Shown: piece after piece, positions 2,827-9,566 of the stretch
How the letters are laid out: every line of letters begins with the position of its first letter
Position numbering within the stretch: position 1 is the first letter of the stretch
Source: Pseudomonadota bacterium
GTDB lineage: Bacteria; Pseudomonadota; Alphaproteobacteria; Caulobacterales; Caulobacteraceae
Reading direction: 5' to 3'
Length of the DNA: 64,000 bases
Assembly (NCBI GenBank): GCA_019348195.1
Contig: JAHWJX010000002.1
Location: forward strand, 1-64,000
Notes under the pieces: generated by a model
Database searches by the model: none
The model's input: only the letters and a program-made list of their open reading frames with translations
What the model was told of the DNA's origin: nothing
Program-made: the position numbers and the translations under genes

Positions 2827-3447
2827 TCAGTCCTGGCTGCGCGGTTTTCTGGGATCGCCCTTGGGCGCGGGAGCCAGGCGCAGCACCTCCGCCTGATAGC
2901 GTTCGTCGTCCCCGGCGGCCAGGAAGGGCAGGGCCTCGCCGCAGGCGTCCAGCAAGGCCCGCACCCAGGGCTGCTCCGCCTTGGCGAACGGCCCCAGCAC
3001 ATAGGCCTGCACCAAGTCCTTATGCCCGGGATGACCCACGCCCAACCGCGCGCGCCGAAAGTCCGGCCCGAACCGCGCCATGGTGGAGCGGATCCCGTTG
3101 TGCCCCGCCGCGCCCCCGCCAGTCTTCATGCGGAATCGCCCCGGAGCCATGTCGATCTCGTCGTAGAAGACGACCACATCCGCGGGGTCGATCTTGAAGA
3201 ACCGGGCCGCTTCGGCGATCGCCCGGCCGCTCTCGTTCATGAAGGTCTGCGGCTTGAGCAACAGGGCGCGCACGGAGCCGCCCTCCGGCGTCGGCACGGC
3301 GCCTTCGGAAACCAGGCTGGAGAAGCGCGACCGCTCGGGCCCGAACCGCCATCGTTGCGCGATGGCGTCGGCGGCCATGAAGCCGATGTTGTGGCGGTCT
3401 TGGGCGTGCTTGGGGCCGGGATTGCCCAGCCCCGCCAGCAGCAGCAT
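2827..3447 (-). CDS. pth: peptidyl-tRNA hydrolase
   Basis: The product has 206 residues and rescues peptidyl-tRNAs by hydrolysing the ester bond. The expected catalytic features are present: GLGNPG with Asn9, His19 in RHNIGF, Asp in FYDEIDMAPG at about 91-100, and GAAGHNGIRS at about 109-118. The ATG shares one base with the TGA of rplY (TGATG), so the two genes are translationally coupled. The rplY-pth order is conserved in alphaproteobacteria. Confidence 0.97.
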   Translation of the reverse strand: MLLLAGLGNPGPKHAQDRHNIGFMAADAIAQRWRFGPERSRFSSLVSEGAVPTPEGGSVRALLLKPQTFMNESGRAIAEAARFFKIDPADVVVFYDEIDMAPGRFRMKTGGGAAGHNGIRSTMARFGPDFRRARLGVGHPGHKDLVQAYVLGPFAKAEQPWVRALLDACGEALPFLAAGDDERYQAEVLRLAPAPKGDPRKPRSQD

Positions 3448-4058
3448 CAGCCTTCGGCGGTCTCGCCGGAGGCGTCAGCCTCGCTGGAGACCATCGCCGA
3501 GCTCGAAGCCACGGTGGCGATCACGAAATCGCGGTCGGTGATGGTGGGCTCCACGCCCTGGGGCAGGGTGATGGACGACATCCGAACCTGCTCGCCGATG
3601 TCGAGACCGGTCAGGTCGGCCACCAGCACCTCCGGGATGCTTTCGGCCGGGGCCCACAGCTCCACCTCGTGGCGAACCACGTTCAGGGTGCCGCCCCGTT
3701 TGAGGCCTGGAGCATCCTCCGGGTTGTCGAAGCGCACGGGCACGGCGATGCGGATCAACTGGCCTTCCTCCACCCGGTACAGGTCGAAGTGGACGGGCTG
3801 GTCGTTGACCGGATGGAACTGGATGTCCTTGGCGATCACCGTCTGGGTTTCGGAGCCGTATTGCAGGGTCACGCGGTGGCCCAGCAGGCCGCCCGTGAAC
3901 AGCGCCTTGCGGAAGGCGTTGGCGTCGACCGACAGCGGCACGGGGCCGCGCGTGCCGCCGTACAGCACGCCGGGAACGCGGCCGGCGCGACGGACCGCGC
4001 GGGCGCCGCCCGTGCCGATGTTCTCACGCACTTCAACGTTCAGGACGATGTCGGCCAT
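3447..4058 (-). CDS. rplY: 50S ribosomal protein L25 / general stress protein Ctc
   Basis: The product has 203 residues in the long Ctc form, not the short E. coli L25 form. The N-terminal 5S-rRNA-binding L25 domain begins VEVRENIGTGGARAVRRAGR (residues 7-26), then VPGVLYGG. The C-terminal TL5-type domain contains VLVADLTGLDIGEQVRMSSI, and the end is a short acidic tail. The start at 4058 (MADIVLN) fits homologues better than the upstream in-frame GTG at 4091. It overlaps pth by one base. Confidence 0.95.
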   Translation of the reverse strand: MADIVLNVEVRENIGTGGARAVRRAGRVPGVLYGGTRGPVPLSVDANAFRKALFTGGLLGHRVTLQYGSETQTVIAKDIQFHPVNDQPVHFDLYRVEEGQLIRIAVPVRFDNPEDAPGLKRGGTLNVVRHEVELWAPAESIPEVLVADLTGLDIGEQVRMSSITLPQGVEPTITDRDFVIATVASSSAMVSSEADASGETAEG

Positions 4059-4197: not shown

Positions 4198-5265
4198 TCA
4201 GCCTCCCGGTTTGGGCGTCGCGGGCCGGGCCTGCGCCGCGGCAGCCGCCGCGGTGGGCGCTGCGACCGGGACCACGGCGGCGGCCATGGCCGGGGGCGCT
4301 GCGTTGCCGGCCTCAACCATGCACTGACCGGTGTCGATCAGCACGTGCTGACCCAGGCAGAACACGTCCTCGTACCAGGGCTTGGCCACCGCCAGACACT
4401 GGTTGAGGTTGAGCTTGCTCATGTTCAGGCAGGACCCGCCCGTGGGCTCAACCAACAAAGTGTCAAAGGACGGCGCAAAGGCGGGATCGTCGCCGTAGCC
4501 GAGCGCGGACAGCGCTGCGATAGCCAAGCTGCGCACCACCACCGGAGTGTAGGGCGGTCGCAGGCTGGCCGGCGTAGCCGCGGACGGGGTCTGGCCCAGC
4601 GCCAGGCTGCGCAGGCGCTCGATGGTGGGCGTGTCGGCGGGCGCAAGCGCCGTACCCAAGGCCTTGACGTTGGCCAGCCGCTCTTCCCGGTTCGGAATGG
4701 TGACCTTCGACCAGGCCTGGCGCTGAACGCTGTAGGCGCTCTGCTTTACGCTCTCGCCCGCCACACGGACCCGGCGGCCTTCGCGGTCCAGAGCCTGGGC
4801 CACAAGACTGGCCGCGCTGGAGGCGCCGGGGAATCCGGTGATGTAGGCCGGATCGGCGGCGATGCGCGCAGCGATGTCAGCCCGCTGCGCCGGGTTGCGG
4901 GTATAGGCTCGGACCGCTTCAACAAAGACGGGATCCTGCAGGGCCGCAACCGCTCCGTACGCCACTGCGCCGGTGGCGAGCTGACGAGGCTCATAGGCCG
5001 CCGCGATCGTGAGCGAGCGCGCGACGGACGGTCCGTCCGTAAAGGACGGGGTGATGCCGGCCGCACGGTTCATATAGGCCTCGAACGCCGCCGCCTGCTC
5101 GATCACACGAGGAGCGACCGTCAAGGGCGGAAGCGGGGCCGGCGGCGGCGCCGCGACCACAACCGGAGCGGGTTCCGGCGTGGGGGTTTCGCAGCTGCCC
5201 AGGCTGATGGCTGCGATGCAGACCGCGCCCAGGACGGCGGCGCGGCGGTGGTGGTTGCGAAGCAT
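4198..5265 (-). CDS. exported lipoprotein-like protein with C-terminal four-Cys motif (paralogue 1)
   Basis: The product has 355 residues. The start at 5265 has GGGAGG about 8 nt upstream; the longer ORF start adds an unlikely leader. Residues 1-26 form a signal peptide ending in LGSC, a possible lipobox, followed by a Pro/Ala linker. The middle is helical, with AAAYEPRQLATGAVAYGAVA. Near the C-terminus is a C-x10-C-x12-C-x11-C block containing KPWYEDVFCLGQHVLIDTG. The next gene (5444-6553) is a tandem paralogue with the same architecture. I do not recognise the family. The conserved cysteines in an exported protein suggest disulfides or a bound cofactor; that is inference. Confidence 0.82.
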   Translation of the reverse strand: MLRNHHRRAAVLGAVCIAAISLGSCETPTPEPAPVVVAAPPPAPLPPLTVAPRVIEQAAAFEAYMNRAAGITPSFTDGPSVARSLTIAAAYEPRQLATGAVAYGAVAALQDPVFVEAVRAYTRNPAQRADIAARIAADPAYITGFPGASSAASLVAQALDREGRRVRVAGESVKQSAYSVQRQAWSKVTIPNREERLANVKALGTALAPADTPTIERLRSLALGQTPSAATPASLRPPYTPVVVRSLAIAALSALGYGDDPAFAPSFDTLLVEPTGGSCLNMSKLNLNQCLAVAKPWYEDVFCLGQHVLIDTGQCMVEAGNAAPPAMAAAVVPVAAPTAAAAAAQARPATPKPGG

Positions 5266-5443
5266 GAACGGCCTCCCCTCAGGGGGTTGAACTAAGGCAT
5301 GAAAAGGGCCGGCAATGTGGCGAGGGGACGCCGGCATCGACCGTTAGGAGGCTCATACCGGAGCCGACGAGTCGCCTCAACGGTGAAGGGGGCGCTGCGT
5401 CGCCGCAGCACCCCCTCCCGTGTTCACAATCCGGTGGCCGGCC

Positions 5444-6553
5444 TCAGTGCAGGGCGGCCACGGTGGTCAGGGCCCCGGCCGGCTCAGCTTTGTAAGGCCT
5501 TGACGGCGCCGCAAGCACCGCCGCGGGCAGGGAAGGGGCCGGCTGCTTCGCGGCGGCGGCCTGGATACAGTCTCCGGTGTCGATCAAGACGTGCTGGCCC
5601 AGGCAAAAGACGTCCTCGTACCAGGGCTTGGCCACGGCCAGGCATTGGAAAAGGTTCAGCTTGGACATCCGCAGGCAGGAGCCGCAGCCGGCCTCCTCCA
5701 TGAGCCGATCGGCCTTGGCCAGATCCGCCTCGCCCAGCACGGCCAGGGCGGCCAGCGCCAGGCCGCGGGCCACGACCGGTCGCGCGGAGGGTTCGGGCGC
5801 GCCTTCGGGCAAGCTCAGGCGACCGGCGCCCAGGGAAGCCAGCTGCAACTCCGCGAGGTCGGTGGCGGGAGCCGAGAGGGGTTGGGCGGACAGCGACTTG
5901 GCCAAGGCTAGGCGCTCCACGCGTGCGCTCACCTCGTTCTTGGCCCAGGCCTGCTTTTGCACATCATAGGCGGCCTGCTTGACCCGTTGGCCGGCGGCGC
6001 GCACCCGCGCGCCTTCCTCGCCCAGGGCGGCCGCTGCGCGGCCGGCGGCGGCGTCGGCTCCGGCAAGCTCGCCGGCGGAATGAGGCGCCCCCGTCAGCCG
6101 GGCCACCAGGGCGGCCCGCCGCGCGGGGTCGGCCCCCACGGCGCGCACGCCCTCTACGAAGCGGCGCTCATGCAGCGCGGCCACGGCCGCGAAAGCCACG
6201 GCGCCCCGGGTCATCTGCTTGGGCTCATAAGCCGCGCCGAGCTCCAGCGCGCCGGCGATCGCGGGGCCGTCGGCGAAGCTCGCCGACACTGCGGCCGCCT
6301 GGCGCATATAGAGCCGGTAGGCGCCGGCGGCCTCCAGCACCTCGCGCGGGAGCCCTACCGTCGGGGTAGGGGCGGCTGTGACCGGCAGGGCCATCGGGAC
6401 CACCGACTCGGGCGCCGTCAGGCCCAGGGAGGCCAGCTCCTCGGGTCCGGGGCCTTGGACGGTGTCGGTCGAAGCGTGAGCGGTGTGGAGCAGGCACAGG
6501 CTGGCCAGGCTGGCCAGAAAGGCCGCCGAACGCAGCCGCGGAAAGGTGAGCAT
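5444..6553 (-). CDS. exported protein with C-terminal four-Cys motif (paralogue 2)
   Basis: The product has 369 residues with a cleavable signal peptide ending AHA|S near residue 27. It shares the domain plan of the 4198-5265 product: GAAYEPKQMTRGAVAFAAVA in the middle, RVKQAAYDVQKQAWAK further on, and a C-terminal C-x10-C-x12-C-x11-C block around KPWYEDVFCLGQHVLIDTG. One extra Cys stands three residues before the first (CGSC). Unlike paralogue 1 it has no lipobox, so it is probably soluble periplasmic or secreted. The two genes are co-oriented with 178 bp between them. No function can be assigned. Confidence 0.82.
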   Translation of the reverse strand: MLTFPRLRSAAFLASLASLCLLHTAHASTDTVQGPGPEELASLGLTAPESVVPMALPVTAAPTPTVGLPREVLEAAGAYRLYMRQAAAVSASFADGPAIAGALELGAAYEPKQMTRGAVAFAAVAALHERRFVEGVRAVGADPARRAALVARLTGAPHSAGELAGADAAAGRAAAALGEEGARVRAAGQRVKQAAYDVQKQAWAKNEVSARVERLALAKSLSAQPLSAPATDLAELQLASLGAGRLSLPEGAPEPSARPVVARGLALAALAVLGEADLAKADRLMEEAGCGSCLRMSKLNLFQCLAVAKPWYEDVFCLGQHVLIDTGDCIQAAAAKQPAPSLPAAVLAAPSRPYKAEPAGALTTVAALH

Positions 6554-6743: not shown

Positions 6744-7676
6744 TCAATCGAACAGTTTCGAGACGGACTCTTCGTTGGCGATGCGCCGTATGGCTTCACC
6801 GATGAGCGGCGCCACGCTGATCGCCCGGACCTTTCTGGATCCGGCGGCGGTGTCCGACAAGGCGATGGAGTTGGTCACCACCAGTTCACGCAGGACGGAG
6901 TTCTCGACCCGCTCCACCGCCGACCCCGACAGCACGCCGTGGCTGACATAGGCGTAGACCTCAGTAGCGCCGGCCTCCGCAATAGCGGCCGCCGCGTTGC
7001 AGAGCGTGCCCGCACTGTCCACGATGTCGTCGTAAAGGATGCATCGACGGCCGGAAACGTCGCCGATGATGTTCATCACCTCGCTTTGCCCCGGGGCCGA
7101 GCGGCGCTTGTCCACGATGGCCAGGTCGGCGCTCAGACGGTCGGCCAGCTGCCGGGCGCGCACGACCCCGCCCACATCCGGGGAGACGATCATCAGGTCG
7201 CCCCCGTTCAGCCTTTGGCGGATGTCCGCGGCGTGCACGGGCACGGGGGTGAGATTGTCCGTGGGGATGTCGAAAAAGCCCTGGATCTGTCCCGAGTGCA
7301 GGTCCATCGACAGCACCCGGTCCACCCCGGCGCGGGTCAGCAGATTGGCCACCAGCTTGGCCGAGATCGGCGTGCGGCCGCCCATCTTCCGATCCTGGCG
7401 GGCGTAGCCGAAATAGGGCAGCACCGCCGTGATCCGCCGCGCGGAAGCCCTGACCAGGGCGTCGATGCAGATCAGCAGCTCCATGAGGTTGTCGTTGGCC
7501 GGAGCCGAGGTGGACTGAATAACGAAGACGTCCTCGCCGCGGACGTTCTCTTCGATCACCACGAACACCTCCGCATCAGCGAAGCGGCGCACCTGCGCCC
7601 GGCACAGGGGAACGTCGTGATAATCGGCGATGGCCTGCGCGAGCGCGCGGTTGGAGTTGCCGGCCAGCAGCTTCAT
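6744..7676 (-). CDS. prs: ribose-phosphate pyrophosphokinase
   Basis: The product has 310 residues and makes PRPP from ribose 5-phosphate and ATP. The start [13 protein letters not shown] at 7676 gives the family's usual length; nine extra codons upstream are unlikely. Seen are [17 protein letters not shown] (about 60-76), the catalytic flexible-loop region [18 protein letters not shown] (about 92-109), [13 protein letters not shown], and the PRPP-binding loop [17 protein letters not shown] (about 216-232). It follows pgeF on the same strand after 40 bp. Confidence 0.96.
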
Positions 7677-7716
7677 CGGGGGTCTCGCGAGGGGGGCTCC
7701 CAATGACGGGGCGGTG

Positions 7717-8493: not shown

Positions 8494-9566
8494 CGGGCTG
8501 CGCCTGCGAAGCCGGGCGGGATCAACTCGGGCGGAGACATCACCGCCGCGGCCTTGAACAGCTCGCCCATGCCGTCGGGCTCGATCAGCCGGGCCAGCTG
8601 ACGGCGGAGCACCGCCTCGCGATCGGGGTTGGCGGCGATCAGGGCGTGGGCGCGGGCCTCCACGCCCAGCCTGCGCAGGAATTGGCCCTGGGTGAGGATC
8701 TCCGTCACCCCCGCCCCCTCGGCCGCGGCCGTGGCCAGAACGGTCGGGAAGTCCGCCCACACCGTCAGGTCGGCATGCCCCGGATCCAACAAGGGCGGAA
8801 CCTTCTGGTGATTGCGCAAGGCCTGCAGGGTGTCCCCGGGCTCGGGTCGGGCTCGCCCGTAGTCGATCAGCAGAGCCGCGCCGCTCGCCTCCACGATCAA
8901 GGCCGCCAAACGGCGCGCGAACTCCGCCTGGGCCGGCGACACCTCCATCAGCTCGCCCGGTTCGGCCCGGAAGGCCGGCGGAACGTCGGGCGCGGGCGTC
9001 AGGCCGAAGACCAGCGCGTCCGCTTCGTCCACGCCGACCCGTCGCTCGGCCCAGCCCTCGCCCACACGAACGAACTGACGGGCGGGAAGGCAGTCGAGCA
9101 CCTCGTTGGCGAGCAGGATCAGCGGCAGGTCCGCGCCCAGGCCGTCGAGGCTGGCCAGCCAGCGGGGCCGGAGCGGTCCGTCCGCCAGACGCTCGGCCTG
9201 CAGCTCCCGCAGCGGAGGGCTGGGCTCCACCAGCACCAGCTCCGCGGCCTGGAGGAAGGCTGGATCGAGCGCGGCCGCGCGCAGGGCGTCCTGCATGAGC
9301 GTGCCGTCGCCCGGGCCGACCTCGACCAGACGGAAGCGTTCGGGCGCGCCCAGCCCCCGCCAAACCGCCACCGCCCACAGGCCCAGGAACTCGCCGAACA
9401 TCTGGCTGATCATGGGCGCGGTCACGAAGTCGCCATCGGCGCCTAGCCTGGGGCGGGTGGCGTAATAGCCGTCAATGGGATCGTGCAGGCAGGCCGCCAT
9501 ATAGTCCGCCACGGTGATCGGACCCGCCTCGCGGATGCGCGCCTTGAGCCGGTCCTCGAGGCTCAC
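8490..9566 (-). CDS. SAM-dependent methyltransferase of the MidA/NDUFAF7 family (DUF185)
   Basis: The product has 358 residues, GTG start. The family signature runs DRLKARIREAGPITVADYMA (5-24), DGYYATRP, GDFVTAPMISQMFGE (45-59) and the SAM site LVEVGPGDGTLMQD (about 80-93). Eukaryotic homologues methylate an arginine of the complex I subunit NDUFS2; bacterial targets are unproven. It overlaps lgt by four bases (GTGA) and pgeF by four bases, a conserved alphaproteobacterial arrangement. Confidence 0.92.
   Translation of the reverse strand: MSLEDRLKARIREAGPITVADYMAACLHDPIDGYYATRPRLGADGDFVTAPMISQMFGEFLGLWAVAVWRGLGAPERFRLVEVGPGDGTLMQDALRAAALDPAFLQAAELVLVEPSPPLRELQAERLADGPLRPRWLASLDGLGADLPLILLANEVLDCLPARQFVRVGEGWAERRVGVDEADALVFGLTPAPDVPPAFRAEPGELMEVSPAQAEFARRLAALIVEASGAALLIDYGRARPEPGDTLQALRNHQKVPPLLDPGHADLTVWADFPTVLATAAAEGAGVTEILTQGQFLRRLGVEARAHALIAANPDREAVLRRQLARLIEPDGMGELFKAAAVMSPPELIPPGFAGAAR

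Follow-up and report, generated by a model that had tools for sequence, protein, structure and literature searches.

Relatedness of the gene pair

What is the role of two adjacent genes whose products are both exported and share a nearly identical cysteine-containing block, but differ over most of their remaining length? The question is raised by a locus in the window, i.e. the whole stretch of 64,000 nucleotides of Caulobacteraceae DNA that was analysed. Inspection of the open reading frames placed both genes on the minus strand: P0001 (4198..5265, minus strand; 355 aa), a predicted lipoprotein with four Cys in its folded part, and its paralogue P0002 (5444..6553, minus strand; 369 aa), predicted to be exported and soluble. 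The start of P0001 is most likely the ATG at 5265, 24 codons inside the longest open reading frame, which begins at 5337. As judged from the sequence, P0001 opens with a lipoprotein signal peptide ending in lipobox Cys25 (ISLGS|C; 5191..5265, minus strand) and continues with a Pro-rich linker, a helical core of approximately 230 residues, the Cys block and an Ala/Pro tail. Cys25 is conserved in at least 90% of a 65-sequence alignment and the ISLGS|C lipobox is kept in the orthologues, as expected of a bacterial lipoprotein. P0002, by contrast, carries an ordinary signal peptide without a lipobox (6473..6553, minus strand), with cleavage at AHA|S expected after residue 27. A preliminary description of the locus had taken both products to be exported, one as a lipoprotein and the other as a soluble protein, and these signals bear it out. 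A K-rich C-terminal tail is absent from both. The flanking genes were identified by sequence as prs (6744..7703, minus strand) upstream and rplY (L25/Ctc; 3447..4058, minus strand) downstream, and both are conserved neighbours.

The intergenic region between P0002 and P0001 contains a very stable stem-loop (5375..5425, minus strand) with a 12-bp GC-rich stem, a GCGA loop and a folding energy of -35.6 kcal/mol (z -6.4). The sister species retains it (L103, about 9163-9191), except that one side of a pair is altered, U-G having become U-A. Having no U tract, it is possibly an attenuator or a processing site; scans for consensus promoters and terminators gave no signal above chance.

For the pair and its family, no significant match was obtained in Pfam, NCBIfam, PHROGs, PADLOC or PDB sequences, and the earlier statement that no characterised relative was known thus held in profile and structure searches. 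Fold searches returned generic helical bundles with the whole model (Foldseek E 0.15 and VIA Z 5.5 at best), with a fragment (E 2.6 and Z 5.7 at best) and in a viral library (lowest E 0.67), although the lack of a fold match is no proof of a new fold. A DUF1311 protein (PDB 3gi7), likewise secreted, gave a weak profile match that was not significant (E 0.22); it fell at profile positions 115-211, outside the Cys block, Pfam detected no LprI or DUF1311 domain, and membership in that group was rejected. No study of the family emerged from literature searches, only one possible listing, under CC0486, in a 2007 survey (PMC2241609, Table 5), where this 'hypothetical' signature protein is given as restricted to Caulobacter, Oceanicaulis, Maricaulis, Hyphomonas and Parvularcula; a second entry of that survey, CC2480, shares this range. 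The reported range of CC0486 resembles that of the family, and its number implies a map position of about 0.5 Mb, in keeping with several Caulobacter genomes. CC0486 may be the Caulobacter crescentus member.

Distribution and copy number

P0001 and P0002 are members of a genuine, widely conserved and unnamed exported family. Protein searches detected it in 188 of 200 Caulobacterales genomes sampled, and a profile search rescued one of the 12 negatives (189/200); of the 11 genomes still negative, seven are from a single genus. Since these 11 genomes of the order have no detected copy, the family is not essential everywhere. Within the Caulobacter-type genus of G171, all 61 sampled genomes matched. 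At the level of the class there were matches in 25 of 385 genomes, Caulobacterales members counted in, with the other Alphaproteobacteria scattered. Spread of the family by plasmids was considered and rejected, a plasmid search having given no match. An exported protein that is nearly universal in a model order is thus without a family entry or an assigned function in the libraries searched, and it is directly testable in C. crescentus.

The majority of relatives occur as single copies at the prs-rplY locus. The genome of the window encodes a third paralogue after rpsD (G000:C55:27571-28602; L002 1384-2571), soluble, with a CASC motif and 51% identity to P0002, and the sister species holds all three. 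The tandem paralogues of the preliminary description are therefore real, but conservation does not extend to the pair as a unit. An exported ferritin-like protein (Ferritin_2) is encoded near an rpsD-linked paralogue (L033:5387-6274, minus strand).

Conservation of the cysteine block

The block comprises C279-x10-C290-x12-C303-x3-H307-x7-C315 in P0001 (4321..4431, minus strand; alignments and structural model) and C293-C304-C317-H321-C329 in P0002 (5567..5677, minus strand; pairwise comparison), the C-x10-C-x12-C-x11-C spacing being exact in both. Identity between the two proteins amounts to 34 of 37 residues in the block, as against 97 of 223 in the core (residues 50-278) and 13 of 46 at the N-terminus, in agreement with the near-identical block and diverged remainder described previously. 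Different codons are used for 13 of the 34 identical residues in the block and for 54 of 97 in the core, and the likeness of the blocks is for this reason better ascribed to selection on the protein than to recent copying. Recent gene conversion as its main cause was rejected on the same codon differences and because the block is equally conserved between distant species. Chance is no better an explanation of the spacing, as it is retained by all 159 distinct homologues. Taken on the sequences, the likeness appears to be neither accidental nor the product of a recent copy.

Both genes are under purifying selection, as follows from dN/dS values of 0.09 (P0001) and 0.23 (P0002) against the orthologues in the sister species, the one other genome of the genus compared; identities to these orthologues over aligned residues were 95% and 89%, respectively.

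The exact motif C-x10-C-x12-C-x3-H-x7-C occurs in 159 of 160 distinct matches, and the 160th, a low-complexity fragment without the motif, was judged a non-member. In a 19-sequence alignment with a mean column identity of 28%, the invariant positions are the four Cys, His307 and Glu299, all within the block, together with Trp185 and a few small residues.

Predicted fold and cysteine pairing

An AlphaFold2 model of P0001, built on 65 sequences, is all alpha (mean pLDDT 87, pTM 0.80, with pLDDT above 90 for most of 46-322) and upholds the helical core proposed earlier. Its last two long helices, 277-293 and 297-320, are separated by three residues. Counted from the centre of the turn (about 295), C290 lies 5 residues before and C303 8 after, while C279 lies 16 before and C315 20 after. 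From these helix limits, only the nested pairing C290-C303 plus C279-C315 is in register, and the alternatives are far out of it. The all-helical fold and the predicted hairpin are fairly secure. The last 87 residues modelled alone gave the same helices with a pLDDT of 74, and the hairpin may not fold independently.

The preliminary description had left open a disulfide or a cofactor domain. The former survives as a conserved block of disulfide type. The latter, if taken as one metal or Fe-S site to which all four Cys contribute, is unlikely according to the model and was rejected, because Cys of the same helix, 11 and 12 residues apart, would be about 16.5 Å (C279/C290) and 18 Å (C303/C315) from each other at 1.5 Å per residue. 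Two structural disulfides are the more plausible use of the four Cys, given that these are in general the only ones, their spacing is fixed, they are nested in register, the protein has an export signal, and the same genome encodes DsbB (E 2.5e-30) and three DsbA-like (Thioredoxin_4) proteins.

As an explanation of the whole we lean, with moderate confidence, towards a disulfide-stapled hairpin, oxidised by the Dsb system, on an exported all-helical scaffold protein of the envelope. P0001 and P0002 would form one orphan family exported through Sec, in which oxidation of the four invariant Cys would give two nested disulfides, C290-C303 close to the turn and C279-C315 at the opposite end, and so staple the last two helices together as a rigid hairpin, CHCH-like in topology. 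The extreme conservation of this hairpin, set against a fast-changing body, suggests a fixed docking surface, which the variable helical body and tails would adapt. The ancestral form was presumably a soluble periplasmic protein; in the Caulobacteraceae it would have turned into a lipoprotein of the outer membrane, attached by a Pro-rich linker and expressed from prs-rplY, a housekeeping locus, and in this genus two further copies, soluble and with an additional Cys that makes a CxxC, would have arisen by duplication. While the sequence features, the invariance of the motif, the synteny and the predicted fold are shown here, oxidation, pairing, sorting to the outer membrane, the ancestral state and the role as scaffold or docking surface are put forward as probable.

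In the alignments His307 and Glu299 match the four Cys in their invariance, which plain stapling does not require. On their account we retain the alternative of a metal site near the turn, in which C290, C303, H307 (i+4 of C303) and perhaps E299 would bind Cu or Zn, C279-C315 would remain a structural disulfide, and the protein would serve as an envelope metal chaperone or sensor. The C-x3-H on one helix face is, on the model, level with C290 of the partner helix. However, no metal-homeostasis gene was a conserved neighbour in the loci examined, and in the presence of Dsb, periplasmic Cys that have no competing ligand normally become oxidised; we consider such a site unlikely.

The proposed stapled hairpin has its nearest analogy in the CHCH, or twin CX9C, proteins (COX17, COA6 and the substrates of Mia40) of the mitochondrial intermembrane space, an oxidising compartment topologically equal to the periplasm. 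As modelled, the block likewise consists of two antiparallel helices with two Cys each, level in nested pairs in the register deduced from the AlphaFold2 helix limits, for which nested pairing would be expected. It differs in its CX10C and CX11C spacing, which replaces twin CX9C in 159 of 159 distinct sequences, in the fusion of the hairpin to a large helical body, in the invariant His and in its bacterial origin. Pfam gave no CHCH or COX17 match (at E 10 for P0001 and P0002, at E 1 for 65 members), and no CHCH protein was among the fold matches listed for the whole model or the fragment, a search in which two-helix hairpins rank poorly. The default reading of the likeness is convergence: the family might work like a CHCH protein without being one. 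A bacterial analogue of this kind would lead one to ask whether periplasmic and mitochondrial oxidative folding have reached the same stapled hairpin.

Genomic setting and the extra cysteine

In nearly all Caulobacteraceae loci fetched by similarity, prs immediately precedes the family gene and rplY-pth-ychF follow it, all in the same orientation, and second copies sit away from this locus. Beside the copies of some relatives, near histidine kinase and DUF1491 genes, another exported family is encoded (L055:4408-5247, plus strand; L058:9161-9982, minus strand; L061:3783-4634, plus strand; L064:9587-10516, minus strand); the two members tested, at L055 and L058, had no Pfam match. Outside the Caulobacteraceae, sufE was found in 17 of 20 loci fetched with wide flanks and, wherever seen (30/30 loci), lies downstream of the family gene on the same strand, with a gap of 11 to 2052 bases; its identity was supported by Pfam SufE (E 2e-44; one locus tested). 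The sufE of the genome of the window is on another contig. Both settings are housekeeping loci, which suggests steady expression of the family and gives no pointer to its function.

Further Cys are absent from the body of 155 of the 159 distinct sequences. The four exceptions come from the two species of this genus, which each contribute both soluble paralogues; in every one of them a single additional Cys precedes the first motif Cys by three residues and yields CGSC or CASC. In P0002 it is Cys290, in C-G-S-C with C293 (5684..5686, minus strand). In no other respect is the genus set apart in kind from other members of the family. A CxxC has thus been gained by P0002 and the rpsD-linked paralogue alone; it opens the first hairpin helix, and these two proteins might be the active forms of a redox-active thiol protein with one labile disulfide that senses or exchanges disulfides. 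SufE is a thiol-persulfide carrier, and the position of the family gene upstream of sufE in relatives would suit such a function. SufE is cytosolic, though, which makes a direct link unlikely, and we do not read the neighbourhood as a shared pathway because the family is exported. With neither a thioredoxin fold nor a thioredoxin match (Pfam, fold search), and with the other 155 sequences lacking the extra Cys, we regard a redox function as distinctly improbable, but retain it, as the metal site, in view of the CxxC paralogues and the invariant His307 and Glu299. More speculative still, and in our opinion very improbable, would be an independently evolved bacterial counterpart of Mia40, in which the soluble paralogues, having arisen from a structural lipoprotein through duplication and the gain of one Cys, would exchange disulfides with periplasmic clients through a CxxC at the start of the stapled CHCH-like hairpin. 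Whatever their function, the naturally occurring five-Cys paralogues lend themselves to comparisons on how a redox motif is gained.

Localisation and duplication

Using simple pattern rules, not signal-peptide software, we found a lipobox in 105 and a K/R-rich tail in 76 of 116 distinct Caulobacteraceae members. Lysine-rich disordered C-termini, such as KKKKK, were seen on many of the lipoproteins (e.g. L035, L036, L038, L041). In other families of the Caulobacterales the signal peptide is mostly of the plain type, with a lipobox in just 2 of 23 distinct sequences, and in other orders the lipobox rule was matched by 10 of 20 sequences, which leaves the ancestral state uncertain. The lipid anchor and Pro-rich linker at one end and the K/R-rich disordered tail at the other could make the Caulobacteraceae proteins a tether between the outer membrane and the peptidoglycan. 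P0001 and P0002 themselves have no such K-rich tail, however, and relatives outside the Caulobacteraceae mostly lack both lipobox and tail; we therefore give little credence to a tether.

In the phylogenetic tree the Caulobacteraceae stand apart from the rest, and an independent tandem duplication at prs-rplY is seen in another genus (G007, G047, G071). The order of duplications in the genus of the window was compatible with a grouping either of the two soluble copies or of all three, neither being rejected (AU p 0.38 each). In the tandem pairs inspected, those of G047 and G071, both copies are lipoproteins by sequence. The earlier proposal that the pair acts at different envelope sites can consequently apply at most to this genus, in which the split into lipoprotein and soluble forms is found.
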